Shown here: piece by piece, positions 29,932 through 38,601 of the stretch
Layout of the letters: every line of letters begins with the position of its first letter
How positions within the stretch are numbered: the first letter of the stretch is position 1
From: Bacteroidales bacterium
GTDB lineage: Bacteria > Bacteroidota > Bacteroidia > Bacteroidales > UBA7960
DNA: 41,554 nucleotides
Assembly: GCA_007129355.1 (NCBI GenBank)
Contig: SKVR01000223.1
Span: 1 to 41,554, forward strand
Reading direction: 5' to 3'
The notes under the pieces: model-generated
The model's input: the letters and a program-made list of their open reading frames with translations, nothing else
What the model was told of the DNA's origin: nothing
Database searches by the model: none
Made by a program: the position numbers and the translations under genes

Positions 29932-30248
29932 GATTTCTTTAAATCGGGTTAAATTGTGTCTGGTTCAATCGCAATAATACGAAGAAGTATTTCACGAATT
30001 ATTTTTAAAATTGTAAAGTTAAAAGTTTTACCAGATTAATAGGTTGTTATTACGATTCGTGAAGCTAATCACGTAGGTAAATACCAAGACTCACGGAGTT
30101 TTTCTCGCTTCATTTTTCGTATTTTTGCTGACATTAAAAAAGTTTAAAAGGTTTTTCAGAAAGAAATATCATAATATTTCATTACCGTTATTTTTGGCGT
30201 TAATTTATTTTTTGCAAAAATAAACATAAATGTAAATTATTGAACTTC
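29932..30248. promoter_or_regulatory. Divergent intergenic region with clustered TCACG motifs
   Basis: 317 noncoding bases between mpl and the MBL gene. TCACG or its complement occurs four times: 29992-29996, 30058-30062 (reverse), 30069-30073 and 30091-30095. Two pair as the 9-base inverted repeat TTCACGAAT (29991-29999) / ATTCGTGAA (30055-30063), and another pair as CGTGA-N6-TCACG. Perfect -7 elements TATTTTTG occur at 30120-30127 and 30189-30196 on the plus strand, both lacking a convincing -33. This looks like a regulated promoter region for the MBL-cysH operon. Confidence 0.45.
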
Positions 30249-31091
30249 ATGAAGTTATTTACTATTGTTCCTGAGAATTTTAAAATGGATGGAGGTGCAT
30301 GTTTTGGTGTAGTTCCCAAAAGCTTATGGTCAAAGCATATTCCATGCGACGATGAAAATATGATTAATCTGTCATCAAGGTGTTTACTCATCGATATCGG
30401 TGATCGCCGCATTTTGATTGATACCGGTCTTGGCAATAAGCAGAGTGATAAATATTACAGCTATTTTCATCTTTTTAATAGAATTGGCTTGGGTAAAGCT
30501 ATTGAAAATCAGGGGTATAGAGTCGAAGACATAACCGATGTAATTCTCACTCATCTTCATTTTGATCATGTTGGAGGTGCTGTAAAATGGGCTGAAGATG
30601 GTAAAACACCTGTTTCGGTTTTTCCCAATGCAACGTTTTATTGTTCCAAAGCCCAATGGGAAACCGCCAATAATCCAAACCCCAGAGAAAAAGCATCTTA
30701 TTTCGCGGAAAACTACATGCCCCTTTACGAAGAAGGCCGGCTGGAATTTATTCATGAAAATACTGCATTTTGTAAAGGGGTCGATCTTGAAATCAAAAAC
30801 GGACATACATTGGGTCAAATAATTCCGTTTATTCACTACAATGGAAGAACATTGGTTTATACGGCTGATTTTATTTCATTCGTTTTCAATATTCCGCTTG
30901 CTTATGTTCCAAGCTATGATGTTGCTCCTGTTAAATCAATGGATGAAAAAGATGAGTTTCTCAGGCGTGCAGTTGAAAAAGATTATATTCTCTTTTTTGA
31001 ACATGATTACTACCACGAATGCTGTTCGCTTCAGGAAACTCAAAAGGGTATACGCGCCAAAGAAACATTTAAATTAACTGACATTGAATAA
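30249..31091 (+). CDS. MBL-fold metallo-hydrolase
   Basis: A 280-residue metallo-beta-lactamase-fold enzyme. The start chosen is ATG at 30249 (MKLFTIVPENFKMDGG); the track's TTG at 30240 is only three codons earlier. Motif: VILTHLHFDHVGG provides the HxHxDH zinc site. A later LEIKNGHTLGQIIPFIH supplies the third His, RTLVYTADFISF the bridging Asp, and LFFEHDYYHE the last His. Overall layout resembles the lactonase-like MBL branch (YtnP/AiiA type), but the substrate is unknown. cysH starts about 31 bases downstream, suggesting an operon. Confidence 0.85.
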   Translation: MKLFTIVPENFKMDGGACFGVVPKSLWSKHIPCDDENMINLSSRCLLIDIGDRRILIDTGLGNKQSDKYYSYFHLFNRIGLGKAIENQGYRVEDITDVILTHLHFDHVGGAVKWAEDGKTPVSVFPNATFYCSKAQWETANNPNPREKASYFAENYMPLYEEGRLEFIHENTAFCKGVDLEIKNGHTLGQIIPFIHYNGRTLVYTADFISFVFNIPLAYVPSYDVAPVKSMDEKDEFLRRAVEKDYILFFEHDYYHECCSLQETQKGIRAKETFKLTDIE

Positions 31092-31121
31092 ACCTGAAAT
31101 CAACCTGGATTGAAAACTGAT

Positions 31122-31838
31122 ATGCTGATGGATAAAAAAACTGCTGATCAACTCAATGAAAAACTTAAAGGGAAGAGTGCTGCTGAAATATTAAAATTTG
31201 TTTCAGAGGAATTCAGGCAAAAAATACGATTTGCATCCAGTATGGGTGTGGAAGACCAGGTAATAACTCACCTGATTGCCGAAAATCAATTGCCTGTAAA
31301 TGTTTTTACTCTTGATACCGGCAGGATGTTTCCGGAAACCTATGAAGTAATTGACAAAACACAGGCGCGTTATAATATTAAGATTTTTGTTTACTTCCCA
31401 GCTGATCAGGAAGTTGAAAAAATGGTAAACGAGAAGGGAATAAATCTTTTTTATCATAGCGTTGAAAACAGGAAGTTATGCTGTGGAATCAGAAAAATAA
31501 AACCGCTGAAAAGGGCACTGGAAGGTATGGATGCATGGATTACCGGCCTGAGACGTGAACAATCTCCTACACGCAATGATATTCAGGTGGTAGAATGGGA
31601 TGAAGGCAATCAGTTGATAAAAATTAATCCTTTGCTTGATTGGAGTGAAAAACAAACCTGGGATTTTGTCAAAGAAAATAAAATACCGTATAACACATTA
31701 CACGATAAAGGTTTTCCAAGCATTGGCTGTCAGCCATGCACAAGGGCGATAATGCCTGGCGAAGATGTCAGAAGCGGAAGATGGTGGTGGGAAAATCCAG
31801 AATCTAAGGAATGTGGTTTGCATATTAAAAAAAAATAA
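31122..31838 (+). CDS. cysH: APS/PAPS reductase with [4Fe-4S] ligands
   Basis: CysH reduces activated sulfate to sulfite in assimilatory sulfate reduction. The 238-residue protein has the ATP pyrophosphatase-like fold: IRFASSMGVEDQVITHLI (P-loop-like SSxGxED), VFTLDTGRMFPETYEV, WITGLRREQSPTR, SIGCQPCTRAI and the catalytic ECGLH near the C terminus. The pairs LCCGIRKIKPL and GCQPC give the CC-x~80-CxxC set that ligates a [4Fe-4S] cluster, which marks enzymes using APS rather than PAPS. The track start is TTG at 31110; ATG at 31122 is preferred. No ATP sulfurylase or sulfite reductase is in view. Confidence 0.93.
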   Translation: MLMDKKTADQLNEKLKGKSAAEILKFVSEEFRQKIRFASSMGVEDQVITHLIAENQLPVNVFTLDTGRMFPETYEVIDKTQARYNIKIFVYFPADQEVEKMVNEKGINLFYHSVENRKLCCGIRKIKPLKRALEGMDAWITGLRREQSPTRNDIQVVEWDEGNQLIKINPLLDWSEKQTWDFVKENKIPYNTLHDKGFPSIGCQPCTRAIMPGEDVRSGRWWWENPESKECGLHIKKK

Positions 31839-31866: not shown

Positions 31867-34518
31867 ATGATATCCGACAACAATTTTACAAAGTTTTATT
31901 TAACAGCTCAACAAGATACATTATGCCCTGAGTTAAAAAGATTTGTACTGGAAAATCAAGACCGGGTTACGGTCATTAATAAAGCCAGCGTGTCTGATTC
32001 AAATGTGCAAGGGGATCTTATCTCAACAAGCAAACCCTGGTTAATGGATTTTAAGAGCTTTTCCCATCTTTCTCAAAATGGGGGTGCTGCTGTAATGAGC
32101 TATTGTAAGTCAATATTACTTTTAGTTGATGAAAAAGATATCGAGATTGCCACCGGATTGGAAATACCAGAAAACGTTTCATTTATTCAGTTGCCTGTAC
32201 GGTCAGGTATTTTGAATTTACTCCTACAGCATTCTTCAAAAAAGCAAAACAAAAAGAACGAAGTTCCTACAAGTCAGGAAGAGTTTTACCGTAACCTTTT
32301 CTTAAACAGCCTGCAACCCAAGATTGTGCTGGATCCTCAGAGTTTTAAAATAATTGATGCAAATAACAGTGCAGCCCACATCTTTAAAATCTCACTGGAT
32401 GAGCTAAAGGGAAGTAGTCTTGATAAACTCCATCCTGAAGAGTTGGAAACCATTCATGAAGAAATCAGGAAGGTAGCGCTGGGTCAGAATTCTTATCTGA
32501 AACTCAAATATCTGAATGATGAAGAAGTACTCGAACTTGAATATTTTGTAAATAAAGTTAGTGTAGGCAATAAACAATTGATATACTTCAACATCCACGA
32601 CAATACAGAAAAGGAGAAAACAGATCAGATGTTTCATGAGCAACATGAGATGCTGCGTAGCACCCTTGAATCAATAGATGATCTTTTTTTTACACTAAAT
32701 AAAGATGGTGACTTTATTGAATATTATCAGCCATCTGATCAAAGCTCACTTGCACTTTCGAGTGATGCTTTTGTAGGTAAAAACATTTATGATGTGGGTT
32801 TTCCGCTCGATGTGGCCAGGAAATACCTTCAGACCATAGAACGGGTAATAGATGATGATAAATCAGAACAAATTGACTATTTTCTGGAGGCTTTTGGTTC
32901 ACGCTTGTGGTATAGTGCCAGGATATCACCACGCAAAAATGCATTTGGAGTGGCAGATGGGGTAACAGTTTTATGCAGAGATATTACACGCCAGAAAAGG
33001 ACTGAAGAAACACTTAAGCGTGCCAGAGACTTTTATCTTACACTTCTTGGCGATTTTCCTAGTATGATCTGGAAAGCAAACACTTCAAAAAGGGCAGACT
33101 ACTTTAACAAAACCTGGCTCGAATTTACCGGTAATGATCTAAACACCGAACTCACAACCGACTGGGTTGAGAAACTTCATATGGCTGATGTGGGAACATT
33201 TCTTTCAACCTTACTTAATGCATATCTTAAAAAGGAATCTTTCCAGCTTGAACACAGATTAAAACATCAATCGGGAGAATACCGTTGGGTTATAAATGCC
33301 GGCAGGCCGCTCTATAATCTGGAAGGAAAGTTTGCAGGCTTTATTGGTTCCTGTTACGACATTACGGAGAGAAGAAAGGCTGAAGAAACCCTTAAGCTCC
33401 AGAAAAGCGCTATGGAGTCGGCCCTCGAGGGTATACTGATTCTTGAGGACAACAATGAGAACTATCCTGTCATTTATGCAAATAAAGAACTCTCAAATAT
33501 TACCGGATACAGTGAAGATCAAATTATAGGAAAAGATTTTATCAATGTGATTGGTCGTCCGCTTCATCAGGATACAAGAGATAATATCATTTATTCATTA
33601 AAAAATAAAAGACCATTCAGAGGGGAAATAGAATGCAAGAATGGTAAAGAAAAAACATCCTGGCGTTTGCTGTTTATGGCTCCGGTTAAAGACGCCAAGA
33701 ACTCTTCAACTCATTTTGTTGCAGTTTTGAGCGATATTACAGATACCAAGGCTGTTGAAAATACCCTAAGGGAAAACAATAAACAATTACAAAAAACCAA
33801 TGAAGAGCTTGATCGGTTCGTTTACAGTACTTCGCATGAATTACGTTCTCCTCTTATGTCTATTCTCGGGCTGGTCAATTTACTTGAAACAGAACAAAAA
33901 TCAGATGAACTGGACAATTATCTGAATATGATTAGAGATACTATCGGTCGACTCGATAAAATAATTCATGATATAATTGATTATTCACGAAATTCAAGAT
34001 CCGATATTATTTTTGAAAACGTTGATTTTAAATGTTTTATAGAAGATGCCATTCAAAGCCATTCATATCTTGAAAACTTTGAAAAGGTTAAGTTTAGTTT
34101 GGATGTGGAAAACGGTGTATCATTTTTTTCCGATAAAAAACGTGTACAGATAATTTTTAATAATTTAATTTCCAACTGTATAAAATTCCATAATCTTGAA
34201 CAGGAGGAACCTTTTGTTAAAGTAAGCGTGAAAACATCGCCGGTGAATGCAGTTATTACTATTTGCGATAATGGGACCGGAATTCATGAAAAGCACATTC
34301 CTAAGGTCTACGAGATGTTTTATCGGGCTACCGACAAAAGTACAGGTAGTGGAATTGGTCTATACATTGTAAAAGAGATCGTTGAGAAACTAAAGGGTAA
34401 AATAAAGGTAAAATCTGAGCTCCGGAAAGGAACCACTTTTATCATTGAATTACCTAATTTCTCGAAAAATGAACCTAAACTCATTCAGATGAACTCGGTG
34501 GATTTCGATTGTTTTTAA
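31867..34518 (+). CDS. Cytoplasmic multi-PAS sensor histidine kinase (HisKA type)
   Basis: An 883-residue soluble kinase with no transmembrane segment. Residues 1-130 have a degenerate receiver-like pattern with no phosphoacceptor set (VTVINKAS, SILLLVDEKDIEIATGL, FIQLPVRSGILNLLLQ). Four PAS domains follow: about 140-250, 258-380 (LRSTLESIDDLFFTLNKDGDF), 385-505 (MIWKANTSKRADYFNKTWLEFTG) and 515-630 (ESALEGILILEDNNENYPVIYANKEL). A linker helix leads to HisKA with H657 in YSTSHELRSPLMSIL, then the HATPase domain with DNGTGIHEKHIPKVYEMFYRA and GSGIGLYIVKEIV. PAS2-PAS3 are closely related to those of the kinase at 34986. A single-domain receiver follows 61 bases later. Confidence 0.93.
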   Translation: MISDNNFTKFYLTAQQDTLCPELKRFVLENQDRVTVINKASVSDSNVQGDLISTSKPWLMDFKSFSHLSQNGGAAVMSYCKSILLLVDEKDIEIATGLEIPENVSFIQLPVRSGILNLLLQHSSKKQNKKNEVPTSQEEFYRNLFLNSLQPKIVLDPQSFKIIDANNSAAHIFKISLDELKGSSLDKLHPEELETIHEEIRKVALGQNSYLKLKYLNDEEVLELEYFVNKVSVGNKQLIYFNIHDNTEKEKTDQMFHEQHEMLRSTLESIDDLFFTLNKDGDFIEYYQPSDQSSLALSSDAFVGKNIYDVGFPLDVARKYLQTIERVIDDDKSEQIDYFLEAFGSRLWYSARISPRKNAFGVADGVTVLCRDITRQKRTEETLKRARDFYLTLLGDFPSMIWKANTSKRADYFNKTWLEFTGNDLNTELTTDWVEKLHMADVGTFLSTLLNAYLKKESFQLEHRLKHQSGEYRWVINAGRPLYNLEGKFAGFIGSCYDITERRKAEETLKLQKSAMESALEGILILEDNNENYPVIYANKELSNITGYSEDQIIGKDFINVIGRPLHQDTRDNIIYSLKNKRPFRGEIECKNGKEKTSWRLLFMAPVKDAKNSSTHFVAVLSDITDTKAVENTLRENNKQLQKTNEELDRFVYSTSHELRSPLMSILGLVNLLETEQKSDELDNYLNMIRDTIGRLDKIIHDIIDYSRNSRSDIIFENVDFKCFIEDAIQSHSYLENFEKVKFSLDVENGVSFFSDKKRVQIIFNNLISNCIKFHNLEQEEPFVKVSVKTSPVNAVITICDNGTGIHEKHIPKVYEMFYRATDKSTGSGIGLYIVKEIVEKLKGKIKVKSELRKGTTFIIELPNFSKNEPKLIQMNSVDFDCF

Positions 34519-34579
34519 TGGGGAAGTAGTTCCAGTATGTAATCTGAAAAAAGCAATCTACAAGTAATTTACATAATTC

Positions 34580-34975
34580 ATGGTTCTTGAAAAAATATTA
34601 TTGATTGATGATAGTGATATTGACAATCTGGTCAATCGGAAAGTTATTGAGAATGCAGGTTTTTCAATGGTAATTACCATAAAAAAATCAGCAGTATCGG
34701 CAATTAACTGGTTGAAGGAAACGGCCGTTTCTAAGCCTGACAATGTTCCTGATCTGATTTTTCTTGATATCAGGATGCCTGAAACAGATGGTTTCGGATT
34801 TCTTACTATGTTCGATGACTTGCCGGATGTTATTCACCAAAAAGTTAGAATTGTAATGTTATCATCATCTATTGATAGTGAAGACTATAAAAGAGCTATG
34901 AATAACCGGTTTGTAATTCATTTTCTGAATAAGCCACTTAACAAGGAAGCTGTTCTTATGATTAGCAATCTTTAA
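34580..34975 (+). CDS. Single-domain response regulator
   Basis: A 131-residue receiver with no output domain. Acidic pocket D10-D11 (LLIDDSDID), phosphoacceptor D63 (LIFLDIRMPETDGFGFL), Ser/Thr switch in IVMLSSSID and conserved Lys in FLNKPLNKEA. It lies between two PAS kinases, starting 10 bases before the second, in what is probably one operon. Receivers of this kind act by protein contact or as phosphate relays and are common after Bacteroidota PAS kinases; the partner is probably the kinase at 31867, by position (inference). Confidence 0.92.
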   Translation: MVLEKILLIDDSDIDNLVNRKVIENAGFSMVITIKKSAVSAINWLKETAVSKPDNVPDLIFLDIRMPETDGFGFLTMFDDLPDVIHQKVRIVMLSSSIDSEDYKRAMNNRFVIHFLNKPLNKEAVLMISNL

Positions 34976-34985
34976 AACAGGAGTT

Positions 34986-37151
34986 ATGGAAACCTTTGAT
35001 TCCAATGTAAATATACCAAATGGAAAAGTGGTATGCCTGCAATGCACCGAAAGAGGCATTGTCAGTTATGTATCCCCTAATGTTTCCGATTTATTGGGGA
35101 TGCAACCGGATCAAATAGAAGGGAAAGAAATTTTATCATTTCTAAACTCTAAATTATCAGGGAAATTATTGAGGCTTTCGCTTAAATGCAAAAAAGATAA
35201 AACATCTGAAGGACTCAGTTTTAACTGGAAAAACACAGATGGAAAGGAGCTGGAACTATCGGTTAATATAAGTTATAACCTTGACCAGGGATATATGTGT
35301 GTACTTATGCCACATTATGAATTACCGCAACAAAAAGAGAAGATTAGAAGACAGCAAGATGTATTGCGTAGTACGCTTGAGTCTATTGATGATTTTGTAT
35401 TTCTGCTTGATAAAGATGGTAAATTCTCTGATTTTTATAGTGAGGATAACTCATCAAAATTTAATAATATTAATAATTCTTTCAGGCCTGGAAACAGTTT
35501 GGCTGATGCAGGTTTTCCATCTGAGGTTGAAACAGCTTTCCTGGCTGTTGTAAAGAAAGTCATTTCAACAGGAGTCAGTGAAGAACTTCGCTATGAATTG
35601 AAGGCATTTGGCAGCAAACTATATTACCACGCGAGAGTTACTCCTGGTTACAATTCAAATAAAAAAATTGAAGGAGTAATTGTAGTGTCACGCGACATAA
35701 CAACTCTGGTAAATTCCGAACTGAAACTGAACCAATCTCTTAATTACTATTTAACTGTTTTCGATAACTTTCCAACACTGATATGGCGAGCCAACAGATT
35801 TAAAAAAATTGATTACGTAAACAATACCTTTAAGGAATTTACAGGAAGAAGCTTTGAAGAAGATAAGGGTGATGGATGGCATAAAGCTATTCACCATGAA
35901 GACAAGGAAAGGATAGTGAAAGAATTTCTTAGAAAATTTGATCAACAAAAACCCTTTATTCAGGAGTACCGTATATTGCACAATACAGGTATGTATCGAT
36001 GGGTTAAAGACTTTTTGCATCCGTTCTACGATTTCAAGGGCAGGTTCTCGGGTTATATAGGAAACTGTATTGATATTAATGATATTCGGCATACTCAAAA
36101 GCTCCTGCAGGAAAGTGAATTAAGGTACAGAGAACTTTTTGATAATGTTCCTGATATTGTTTTCAGATTAAATCAAAAAGGAGAAATTCAGAAAATTAAC
36201 AAAGCTGCAAGCCAGATTCTGGGCTATGATTCTCTTGAAGGTAAAAATGTTTGGGATCTTTTTCTCCCGCAAGAAAGAAGATTAGTTTACAGACAATTTG
36301 AAAAAATTATTTCTGATGGTAAAAAATCTTTTTCGTTTGAAGTAAAAGTTTTCAACAACAAGGGTGAGATCAAATGTCTTCAAATTAAAGGCTTTATAAG
36401 CTTTGATTCTGTTAAAACAGTTTCAGAAGTATATGGAATTGCCCGTGATATTACTATGCAAAAAATGCTTGAAAAGAGCATTCTTAAAAATACAATTGCA
36501 ACTGAAGAGCGAGAAAGAAGAAGAATTGCCGAAGAACTTCATGATGGTATTGGTCCGCTATTATCAGGCCTGAAAATGTATCTTCAGCAGGACAGTCTGA
36601 AAGTTAACCTTGAGGTAAAACAGTTAAAAACACTTACATATTGCCGTGAACTGGTGGATGAATCCATCCGGCAAACCAGAAGCATTGCCAATAATCTCAC
36701 ACCTGGTATTTTAAATGATTTTGGGCTTGAGAAAGCTTTAAAATCACATGTTTTAAAAATTAATGCAATTGGCAAATTCGATGTTAATCTTCATGTAGTA
36801 AACATTCAAGAAAATCTGGAAGAAGAAGTATCTCTGGCCATCTTTAGGGTAGTTACAGAGTTGCTGAATAATTCTCTAAAACACTCAGATTGCAGCAAAG
36901 TTGAGATTGTTATAGATGAAAGAAATGGCATTCTTTCAGGTAATTATTCAGACAATGGGAAAGGCTTTGATCCATTGAAGATACAACATACCAATGCCGG
37001 AAAAATGGGATTGAACAATATTCGAAACCGTATTAATTCTCTTAATGGTAACATTTTATTTAACAGTGATGAAGGTATGGGGTTATTTGTGAAATTTATT
37101 TTGCCGGTAAAACAATCCGAAGTTACAGGTTCTGATAAACCTTTTTTATGA
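34986..37151 (+). CDS. Cytoplasmic multi-PAS sensor histidine kinase (HisKA_3/NarX type)
   Basis: A 721-residue soluble kinase. PAS domains: about 14-110 (GIVSYVSPNVSDLLGM), 118-240 (LRSTLESIDDFVFLLDKDGKF), 245-365 (NFPTLIWRANRFKKIDYVNNTFKEFTG), and 375-495 (LRYRELFDNVPDIVFRLNQKGE). The transmitter is HisKA_3 with H519 in RRRIAEELHDGIGPLLSGL, followed by a HATPase_c domain (TELLNNSLKHSDCSKVEIVI, YSDNGKGFDP, MGLNNIRNRI). This class phosphorylates NarL/LuxR-type regulators, and one is encoded next. PAS domains 2 and 3 match the upstream kinase strongly in order and sequence, so the pair arose by duplication followed by a change of transmitter core. Confidence 0.93.
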   Translation: METFDSNVNIPNGKVVCLQCTERGIVSYVSPNVSDLLGMQPDQIEGKEILSFLNSKLSGKLLRLSLKCKKDKTSEGLSFNWKNTDGKELELSVNISYNLDQGYMCVLMPHYELPQQKEKIRRQQDVLRSTLESIDDFVFLLDKDGKFSDFYSEDNSSKFNNINNSFRPGNSLADAGFPSEVETAFLAVVKKVISTGVSEELRYELKAFGSKLYYHARVTPGYNSNKKIEGVIVVSRDITTLVNSELKLNQSLNYYLTVFDNFPTLIWRANRFKKIDYVNNTFKEFTGRSFEEDKGDGWHKAIHHEDKERIVKEFLRKFDQQKPFIQEYRILHNTGMYRWVKDFLHPFYDFKGRFSGYIGNCIDINDIRHTQKLLQESELRYRELFDNVPDIVFRLNQKGEIQKINKAASQILGYDSLEGKNVWDLFLPQERRLVYRQFEKIISDGKKSFSFEVKVFNNKGEIKCLQIKGFISFDSVKTVSEVYGIARDITMQKMLEKSILKNTIATEERERRRIAEELHDGIGPLLSGLKMYLQQDSLKVNLEVKQLKTLTYCRELVDESIRQTRSIANNLTPGILNDFGLEKALKSHVLKINAIGKFDVNLHVVNIQENLEEEVSLAIFRVVTELLNNSLKHSDCSKVEIVIDERNGILSGNYSDNGKGFDPLKIQHTNAGKMGLNNIRNRINSLNGNILFNSDEGMGLFVKFILPVKQSEVTGSDKPFL

Positions 37152-37185
37152 TCATCTCTGCATTAAAAATCCATGAAATACTTAG

Positions 37186-37214
37186 TTTTTGCTTAACTCA
37201 ATCATGTACTTTTG
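37186..37214 (+). promoter_or_regulatory. Promoter candidate for the NarL/LuxR regulator
   Basis: TTTTTG (37186-37191), 15 bases, TACTTTTG (37207-37214), a perfect TAnnTTTG with a slightly short spacer. The regulator ATG is 97 bases further on. It would let the regulator be made independently of the kinase genes. Confidence 0.35.
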
Positions 37215-37310
37215 GCTGAATCCTGATTGATTTGCAGTTGAAACAGAAAACGTAAGAAGTATATAATATCAAATCAAATGCATTTTTTTTAACCCTAAAT
37301 AGAACAGAAA

Positions 37311-37961
37311 ATGGCATATAAAGTTATGATTGTGGACGATCATTTCATTTTTAGAAATGGTTTAAAAGATCTTCTGGAAGAGATACCTGAAGCTGAAGTT
37401 ATCGGTGAGGCATCATCTGGAAGTGAATTTCTTGAGTTGCTTTCAAGCCACGAACCCGATATTGTTTTTATGGATATAAAGATGCCTGGGATGAATGGAA
37501 TAGAGACCACCCGTAAGGCACTTGAAGAATACCCTGGGCTTAAAATTCTTGCTCTGAGTATGTTCGGTGAAGGTGAATATGTGGAGGAAATGCTTCAGGC
37601 CGGAGCAATGGGCTATTTGCTCAAAAATATAGGAAAAGAAGAATTAATAAAAGCAATTGATAATATAGCCAATGAAAAAGGTTATTTCAGCGATGAAATA
37701 TTGGTTATGGTAACACGGCAGGTGTTTAATGCCAAAAAGAAATCAGAAGAGCAAAGTATCATTGAAAGTCTTACAAAAAGAGAACTGGAGGTGCTTCAGC
37801 TTGTCAGCCAGGGTTTTTCTAATTTAGAAATTGCTGACAAATTAGATATCAGTCCACGCACTGTGGGTGGACATCGCAACAATATGTTGTCAAAATCAGG
37901 TTTGAAAAATACTGCTGCTTTAATCAGTTTTGCAATGAAGAACCAGGCTATTTCAATTTGA
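37311..37961 (+). CDS. NarL/LuxR-type response regulator
   Basis: A 216-residue two-domain regulator. Receiver: VDDHFIFRNGL (D9, D10), phosphoacceptor D55 in IVFMDIKMPGMNG, Ser switch LALSMFGEGEY, Lys in LLKNIGKEEL (usual KP replaced by KN). A linker then leads to the LuxR-type helix-turn-helix: LTKRELEVLQLVSQGFSNLEIADKLDISPRTVGGHRNNMLSKSGLKNTA. It lies 159 bases after the HisKA_3 kinase, the kinase class that pairs with this regulator class. Targets are unknown; one could be this cluster or the divergent genes to the right. Confidence 0.95.
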   Translation: MAYKVMIVDDHFIFRNGLKDLLEEIPEAEVIGEASSGSEFLELLSSHEPDIVFMDIKMPGMNGIETTRKALEEYPGLKILALSMFGEGEYVEEMLQAGAMGYLLKNIGKEELIKAIDNIANEKGYFSDEILVMVTRQVFNAKKKSEEQSIIESLTKRELEVLQLVSQGFSNLEIADKLDISPRTVGGHRNNMLSKSGLKNTAALISFAMKNQAISI

Positions 37962-37962
37962 A

Positions 37963-37998
37963 TAAAAAAAAGGGTTGCCTTTTCACAAAGACAACCCT
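37963..37998 (-). terminator. Hairpin terminator on the minus strand
   Basis: AGGGTTG (37971-37977) pairs with CAACCCT (37992-37998); after one C/A mismatch, CTTT pairs with AAAG around the loop TCAC. On the minus strand the hairpin is followed directly by T8ATT (37970-37960), the arrangement of an intrinsic terminator. On the plus strand no U-run follows, so it mainly ends leftward transcripts just before the NarL/LuxR stop codon. Confidence 0.7.
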
Positions 37999-38388
37999 CA
38001 CACCACTAACACTGTAAAACAATAAAACCAAAAACATGAATTTCTGTGAGACAGAAACCCAATTTTGTAATGTTATTTAATCAAACAAACCTTATAAGAG
38101 CTAAATAAAGAGCAACTTGCCGTTCATTGCTAAAAAACTCTGATACCTCCCCATTCAGAGAGAATTTGACACATAATACTTCAATATGTATCCGACAACA
38201 TTTGATTCTTGTGTCAACTCTCCGGCAACTTCAAATTCAGGAGCACTTACCAACAGCTTTTATTATGTCTTTCCCACTCCTTTAAATCAATTTTGTCTCA
38301 ATAAAACTTTTGTTGCCAATCAATGTCAGGCAAGTTGCTTGTTTTTATATGTCGATATTAATCGGTATCAAATCCTTAAAGAGCTTTA
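37963..38388 (-). ncRNA. Candidate structured noncoding RNA, family not recognised
   Basis: A 640-base gap (37962-38601) holds no convincing gene but several nested inverted repeats. Outer arms: AGCAACTTGCC-N3-CATTG (38111-38129) and CAATG-N3-GGCAAGTTGCT (38321-38339), 16 of 19 complementary. Inner arms: GAGAG-AAT-TTGACACA (38158-38173) and TGTGTCAA-CTCTC (38210-38222), 13 pairs with a 3-base bulge. A further hairpin is TTTCTGT-GAG-ACAGAAA (38041-38057). A minus-strand promoter candidate stands at 38395-38425 and the terminator at 37963-37998, so a leftward transcript of about 425 bases is plausible. I cannot match it to 6S, tmRNA, RNase P or SRP RNA. Alternatively the outer arms could bound a decayed mobile element. 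Confidence 0.4.
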
Positions 38389-38394
38389 ATTTAT

Positions 38395-38425
38395 CAAATA
38401 TACCTCAGATATTAATATTAGTCAA
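38395..38425 (-). promoter_or_regulatory. Promoter candidate for the noncoding RNA
   Basis: On the minus strand: TTG (38425-38423, within AATTGAC), 20 bases, TATATTTG (38402-38395), a perfect TAnnTTTG. The expected start is near 38388. The AT content is high, so a chance match cannot be excluded. Confidence 0.4.
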
Positions 38426-38601
38426 TTCGTTAATTTACTAAAATTTACATAAGGGTTTCCCGCAGAATTTGTTGTATATATTTCCATGATGTTTAAAAAT
38501 CAGGTATATTTTAACTATCAGTGATTCAATGTTATGCCCGAATTTTATAAGTGAATTATATTACATTCAAATGAAATTAATAATGGTTTTTTCTTAAGGT
38601 T

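Follow-up and report, generated by a model that had tools for sequence, protein, structure and literature searches.

The 41,554-nucleotide contig SKVR01000223.1 from a Bacteroidales bacterium, referred to here as the window, carries four plus-strand genes in the order A-REC-B-NarL: a HisKA-type PAS kinase (A), a single-domain receiver (REC), a HisKA_3-type PAS kinase (B) and a NarL/LuxR-type response regulator (NarL). The explanation that best fits the evidence overall, and that is favored here with moderate confidence, is a cytosolic signaling locus built stepwise in one lineage of the Bacteroidales, in which a core A-REC pair would have been joined by a B-NarL pair whose sensor carries a copy of part of A's, and whose pathway would include a structured RNA, RNA1, encoded on the opposite strand. 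Literature searches did not find a description of the A-REC-B-NarL locus. The comparison set comprised 12 genomes in the genus of the window (g1) and 47 in its family, with g3 as the sister genus; relative genomes are labeled G, and loci taken from them L.

The sharing between the two kinases is limited to one 250-residue tandem, the second and third of the four PAS domains in each, and does not extend to the whole sensor array. A and B align at 32% identity over 394 amino acids (E 1e-58), and the best match to B in its own genome is A, at 197 bits versus 128 for the next. When local scores are taken domain by domain, PAS2 of A against PAS2 of B and PAS3 against PAS3 reach z values of about 38-44, far above background as the original prediction of a shared sensor module would have it, and any other A-B pair of PAS domains scores 13 or less. 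Profiles built from orthologues give the same delimitation: PAS2-PAS3 of A and B cross-match at about 100 bits (g1 about 75-120 bits, g3 as high as 146, one truncated copy about 60), all other pairings lie at or below 22 bits, and PAS1 and PAS4 are at background. Since only PAS2 and PAS3 cross-match, the shared module is this tandem, hereafter the cassette. The landmarks by which it had been recognized are exact: LRSTLESIDD at A263 and B127, RDIT at A371 and B236, FPSMIWKAN at A397 and FPTLIWRAN at B262, and GFIG at A491 and GYIG at B356. The A and B cassettes are 38% identical in the window and about 46% in g3, 35 columns are invariant across all copies, and in both kinases a single further PAS domain separates the cassette from the DHp region. 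Relatives have B forms of 870-984 residues with additional PAS domains; in the long forms at L032, L033, L091 and L092 (872-980 residues) these are inserted after PAS3 and ahead of the final PAS, and the short form is that of the window's subclade.

Gene content at the site between cysH and a dehydrogenase (SDR) gene suggests the order in which the locus was assembled. The arrangement MBL-cysH-A-REC-B-NarL, where MBL is an MBL-fold hydrolase gene, is found within g1 in G011, G005 and G008, and in G007 and G002 as far as the contigs reach; G006, also of g1, keeps MBL-A-REC-B-NarL and is missing cysH. The sister genus g3 has A-REC-B-NarL too (G016; spread over separate contigs in G017). At the g8 site, cysH is followed by an A-related kinase of 397-489 residues, next by REC and finally by the SDR gene, and B and NarL are absent; this short A consists of PAS1-HisKA-HATPase (in G045 the N-domain can be detected as well) and is without PAS2, PAS3 and PAS4. 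The SDR gene directly follows cysH in g2, g4 and g6, with no signaling gene between. Individual genomes show partial loci as well: G001 has A-REC, and about 36 nucleotides past REC its DNA rejoins the window right behind NarL, leaving B and NarL cleanly absent, while G004 has A-REC-NarL without B (a REC-NarL gap of 63 bp, L036 7380-7600), is also missing the SDR gene there, and yielded no B elsewhere in its genome. REC lies directly after A in every genome with assembled sequence past A, in g1, g3 and g8 alike, and wherever both kinases occur they stay one REC gene apart. The expectation that the two kinases keep company in relatives is thus borne out for B, no orthologue of which was found without A among the genomes compared, and fails for A, which occurs without B in g8, G001 and G004. 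The simplest reading of these gene orders is that A-REC would form the core, to which B-NarL, with its copy of the sensor of A, was added as a further arm and later lost in part. NarL does not strictly require B, since G004 retains the one without the other.

Separate trees point to where the parts came from. In one, the transmitter of B falls together with the L093 and L094 kinases, and in the other NarL falls with the regulators of these same loci; the L093 and L094 kinases gave no match to the cassette. As the g8 short A also lacks it, both pre-existing pairs are seen cassette-free, and the joined locus carries the cassette in both kinases. In the cassette tree, the A copies form one clade (100/100) and the B copies another (87/70), each with members from g1 and g3, so the A/B split predates those genera. 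The window's genome (3.1 Mb) holds a second HisKA_3-NarL pair on contig C301 (L095 6207-8392), whose regulator is about 52% identical to the window's NarL, and pairs resembling it recur across several genera of the family. An origin of the B transmitter and NarL as a duplicate of this pair was rejected, L093 and L094 being closer. The pairing of kinases with receivers, at first proposed from neighborhood, is now better grounded, since A-REC stands alone in g8 and G001 and the relatives of the B transmitter and NarL are paired elsewhere; for B with NarL in particular, the shared nearest outside pairs favor the assignment and the NarL of G004 counts against it.

Kinase A shows an unusual distribution of rates, its sensor tandem (32632-33381) being better conserved than its kinase core. 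Between G011 and the window, PAS2 and PAS3 of A are 96% and 92% identical, compared with 84% for HisKA, 84% for HATPase, 77% for PAS4, 82% for PAS1 and 55% for the N-domain; between G004 and the window, the corresponding values are 88% and 86% against 76, 67, 69, 41 and 28%. The N-domain (31867-32274) is the fastest-evolving part of A. For A of G011, nonsynonymous divergence (dN) is 0.03-0.04 in the cassette but 0.08-0.13 in PAS1, in PAS4 and in the core of the kinase, and all regions are close to saturation at synonymous sites. That the cassette owes its conservation to recent gene conversion or transfer was rejected, because synonymous divergence (dS) is equally high there, which excludes a recent exchange and shows selection on the protein sequence, and because the A and B copies are unmixed in the tree. 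Kinase B of G011 follows the usual pattern, HisKA_3 being most conserved (89%) and the cassette reaching 73-76%; in G005, identity of the cassette to that of the window is 90-91% for A and 52-66% for B. Judged by these rates, the cassette of A is strongly constrained and B's copy drifts.

This difference bears on whether a single cue serves both kinases. With the cassette most constrained in A but not in B, one common signal driving both arms is possible but unproven, so that of the proposal of a shared cytosolic sensor on two output types, the placement of one module on different transmitters, with REC by A and NarL by B, stands, and the single signal is unsettled. A rather unlikely alternative, though one of the two that survive best, is that the cassettes share ancestry and no longer a ligand, the copy in B having been released or retuned so that the arms answer different cues and the likeness is historical. 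The divergence of B's cassette in G005, the ordinary rate pattern of B and the fact that B is the part trimmed or lost would all fit such a history; the 35 invariant columns and the constant proximity of A and B fit it poorly.

Structural comparison places the cassette among tandem-PAS sensors. Its model (pLDDT 77) has DosP, MmoS, FixL and NifL among its best fold matches (E 4e-11 to 6e-9, TM about 0.4-0.6), proteins that are alike in fold and only 12-20% identical in sequence. No known cofactor signature could be assigned among the cassette residues checked, and no ligand was identified by sequence; in a by-eye check for the axial histidine of heme-PAS domains of the FixL/DosP type, the only nearly invariant histidine is a generic one of the HPxD type. 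PAS4 of A aligns to LOV domains (YtvA type, E 4e-10), and its candidacy as a LOV photosensor was rejected: GKDFINVI is aligned to GKNCRFLQ, the reactive cysteine is a phenylalanine, and the asparagine and glutamine residues that contact flavin mononucleotide are replaced. The N-domain of A, modeled at pLDDT 86, has receivers as most of its top fold matches (E about 0.002, TM about 0.5-0.56) and is tentatively regarded as a pseudo-receiver.

The four reading frames, their sizes and the two transmitter types are as first described, and Pfam domains agree (Table 1). Kinase A is a two-component histidine kinase of the HisKA class, with SHELR at H657, NNLISNC at 765, DNGTG at 801 and GSGIGL at 827 (HisKA 54.3 bits, HATPase_c 84.4 bits), and kinase B is one of the HisKA_3 class, with ELHDG at H519, ELLNNSLKH at 625, DNGKG at 656 and GKMGL at 672 (HisKA_3 38.1 bits). 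No membrane helix is evident in either, the peak 19-residue hydropathy being 1.03 in A and 1.13 in B, and the receiver and regulator lie where they had been reported, REC adjoining A and NarL adjoining B. NarL is of the NarL/LuxR type (Pfam 102 and 65 bits for receiver and GerE, with FMDIKMP conserved), and the top NCBIfam equivalog scores for B and NarL are MctS and MctR, each below cut-off. A-REC resembles HisKA kinases with PAS sensors that have a stand-alone receiver next door, sharing their PAS-HisKA-HATPase_c order; what sets A apart is its N-terminal domain, which resembles a pseudo-receiver, and its PAS2-PAS3 cassette, where evolution is slower than in the catalytic core. B-NarL likewise resembles HisKA_3-NarL pairs of the NarX/NarQ-NarL and MctS/MctR type in its HisKA_3 and HATPase_c domains and in a regulator made of receiver plus GerE, but B differs in having a cytosolic sensor of four PAS domains, the middle two of which form a copy of the tandem in the neighboring kinase.

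Table 1. Coordinates of the genes, shared cassettes and RNA elements in the window.
Feature	Position	Strand	Description
Kinase A	31867..34518	+	883 aa; pseudo-receiver-like N-domain, PAS1-PAS4, HisKA (H657), HATPase_c
Shared PAS2-PAS3 cassette, kinase A	32632..33381	+	residues 256-505; most conserved part of A
REC, single-domain receiver	34580..34975	+	131 aa; Response_reg; receiver motifs IDDSD, LDIRMP, LSSS, NKPL present
Kinase B	34986..37151	+	721 aa; PAS1-PAS4, HisKA_3 (H519), HATPase_c
Shared PAS2-PAS3 cassette, kinase B	35343..36092	+	residues 120-369
NarL/LuxR-type response regulator	37311..37961	+	216 aa; Response_reg + GerE
Intrinsic terminator hairpin and U-run	37970..37999	-	ends the RNA transcription unit
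44-nt invariant segment	37992..38035	-	identical in ten g1 genomes with the RNA
RNA1: closing helix P1, then P2, P3 (apical UUGUCGGA), P4 (loop AUGGGGAGGUA)	38108..38341	-	fold
P3-P4 core	38136..38224	-	covariance model R1, 101 bits
TAnnTTTG -7 box (TATATTTG)	38395..38402	-	fixed offset past the 24-mer
24-nt promoter-upstream segment AAATTTTAGTAAATTAACGAATTG, ending in the -33 TTG	38423..38446	-	conserved

Comparison with G001 exposed a conserved non-coding stretch behind NarL, 82-86% identical over about 500 nucleotides between species close to saturation at synonymous sites. Between G000 and G005, the NarL-SDR gap is 75% identical and three other intergenic gaps are 53-57% identical. Conservation sets in abruptly at about 38461, the upstream edge of the block, and stops at a minus-strand terminator at 37999-37970. 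In a motif scan, the 24-nucleotide segment ending in TTG was present in 14 of 15 genomes, and TAnnTTTG followed at offset 21 in all 14, with the two central nucleotides varying; TAnnTTTG is the -7 box of Bacteroides (PMC7366714). From the positions of the promoter motif and terminator, a minus-strand transcript of about 420 nucleotides is predicted, running from about 38388 to 37970. The RNA1 locus lies just outside the interval covered by the original prediction (31867-37961), on the opposite strand and convergent to the operon, and no operator matching the 24-mer was found upstream of the operon in the window. The 44-nucleotide invariant segment, a single site in the 2.3 Mb of DNA searched and absent from g3 and g8, is likely the 3′ functional segment of RNA1. 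At L107 and L091 (g3, g8), the stretch past the RNA1 terminator is unlike that of g1 and may encode a short plus-strand protein.

The 5′ part of RNA1 is organized as a closing helix, P1, around three inner hairpins, on a similar plan in g1, g3 and g8. The folding z score is -3.7 in the window; the complement folds too (z -5.8), so the strand is assigned by the promoter and terminator. Across ten g1 sequences, 96% of cells pair, and two-sided changes occur in 9 of 40 pairs, with pair 5 at the base of P2 being A-U, G-C, U-A or C-G. A compensatory test within g1 counted 16 two-sided cells versus 6.3 in shuffles (0/500) and 2-7 in slid controls. The P4 loop AUGGGGAGGUA (AAGGGGAGGUA in g3 and g8) and the P3 apical UUGUCGGA are otherwise invariant. 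RNAalifold recovered only P4 from an alignment of all genera, because P3 shifts register between them, and resolved P3 from the g1 alignment. The P4 loop contains GGAGGU, complementary to the core of the 16S anti-Shine-Dalgarno sequence, which may be coincidence. Model R1, which holds five pairs only and is mainly a sequence profile, finds one copy each in 15 of the 47 family genomes (ten in g1, two in g3 and three in g8), and none at its sensitivity in g2, g4, g5, g6 and g7.

The constant partner of RNA1 appears to be A-REC. A or short A is present in 14 of the 15 genomes with RNA1; in the remaining one, G010, the contig end encodes the C-terminus of NarL on the other strand, so the locus exists there, unassembled. 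G003 has A without RNA1, but its contig ends inside A, and G009 and G044 have neither. The co-occurrence gives a Fisher p of 6e-10, which is overstated by phylogenetic clustering. RNA1 persists without B-NarL in g8 and G001, and in G004 without B and without the SDR gene, which leaves A-REC as the element always kept. RNA1 is thus probably a small regulatory RNA of the A-REC pathway. It is conceivable, at somewhat less than even odds, that it represents a family of structured RNAs not described before, single-copy and with its own promoter, dedicated to A-REC and acting as its output or regulator. No Rfam match at gathering score was found at the loci of the window and seven relatives, permissive scans gave no credible match, and the exact P4 motif was not found in viral contigs.

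A housekeeping or cis-antisense RNA lying merely beside the kinases, such as a divergent 6S RNA or a convergent terminator region, would be a different account of RNA1, and it is considered doubtful. Its link to the kinases is, after all, drawn from co-occurrence, RNA1 is convergent to the operon's 3′ end, and Bacteroides has a 6S RNA (PMC7366714). A housekeeping RNA, however, would hardly go undetected by R1 in five genera of the family or escape Rfam even in permissive scans, and RNA1 is found in A-REC genomes, unchanged whether the gene facing it is REC or NarL. With GGA in its hairpin loops and a NarL-type regulator nearby, RNA1 also recalls the GacA-controlled CsrB/RsmZ small RNAs, but the fold is different and RNA1 is retained where NarL is absent (g8, G001), making this an analogy rather than a membership. 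CsrA is not known to be a typical protein of the Bacteroidota.

The stepwise reading of the locus can be put as a working scheme. Kinase A would phosphorylate REC as the core of the system, and B-NarL would have moved in behind REC, A and B coming to carry homologous copies of PAS2-PAS3; B would in turn phosphorylate NarL. A cytosolic cue or partner read by the tandem would tune A-REC, with protein contact or relay as output, and where B-NarL is retained the same cue, were the ligand shared, would perhaps also tune transcription. The dedicated promoter on the other strand would produce the folded RNA of about 420 nucleotides, inherited with A-REC.

It is improbable that the PAS tandem instead joins A to B in hetero-dimers or larger complexes, one kinase modulating its neighbor with no separate arm. 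PAS tandems often dimerise, RetS modulates GacS in such a kinase-kinase manner, and the placement of the cassette just before the last PAS and DHp region in two closely spaced genes would suit such contacts; on the other hand, the transmitters differ in class, A is kept without B in g8, G001 and G004, and NarL is encoded with B, suggesting a normal output. Less probable still is that PAS2-PAS3 is a common mobile unit acquired by A and B independently from different donors: tandems in other phyla (L161, L165, L167) are 33-38% identical to A or B copies, near the 38% between A and B in the window, but the g3 pair exceeds every outsider found, searches of the order (198 genomes) and the class (395 genomes), with a profile built from A and B copies, gave no tandem in other genomes near 380 bits (best 168), and both copies appear together at one site.

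Several points weigh against the stepwise reading itself. Because the cassette of B shows no special conservation, it may bind a different ligand, and the union of A and B cassettes against outsiders is weakly supported (70/34) in a tree with a small outside sample. The polarity is taken from the simplest reading of the gene content, gain in g1 and g3, and loss in g8 may apply instead. With NarL persisting in G004 without B, another kinase, A included, may serve it there. Co-occurrence of RNA1 with A-REC is confined to three genera and hence to few independent events, and RNA1 could matter to the neighboring SDR side, yet it persists in G004, where that gene is missing. Phosphotransfer within A-REC and B-NarL, a shared ligand and the RNA1 transcript are all predictions from sequence, and the genomes compared are draft metagenome-assembled genomes.

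The near relatives are Bacteroidales/Bacteroidetes genomes of this kind, with the codes CSSed, KA, GEM2 and DLM2, those coded CSSed probably coming from a Siberian soda lake (compare PMC6704655). With B as query, a close-relative scan of GTDB contigs found no relative, and with A as query at the order level (295 genomes) no further genome passed the 1e-90 threshold. Upstream of A in the window (30240-31838), with short gaps, lie the MBL-fold hydrolase gene, whose top NCBIfam score, to YtnP lactonase, is below cut-off, and a gene for an APS/PAPS reductase. This MBL-cysH pair occupies the site also in genera without the kinases; in G006 cysH is missing.

In this locus the branching of a two-component pathway may be followed step by step in nature, a second kinase-regulator pair joining the first and carrying a copy of its sensor, and genomes that have naturally lost one arm can serve for comparison. 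The expected rate pattern is reversed in A, where the sensor is more constrained than the catalytic core. If confirmed, RNA1 would represent a new family of RNAs linked to a Bacteroidales two-component system and a candidate output for REC, which has no DNA-binding domain and belongs to the stand-alone receivers, a class whose outputs are often unknown.

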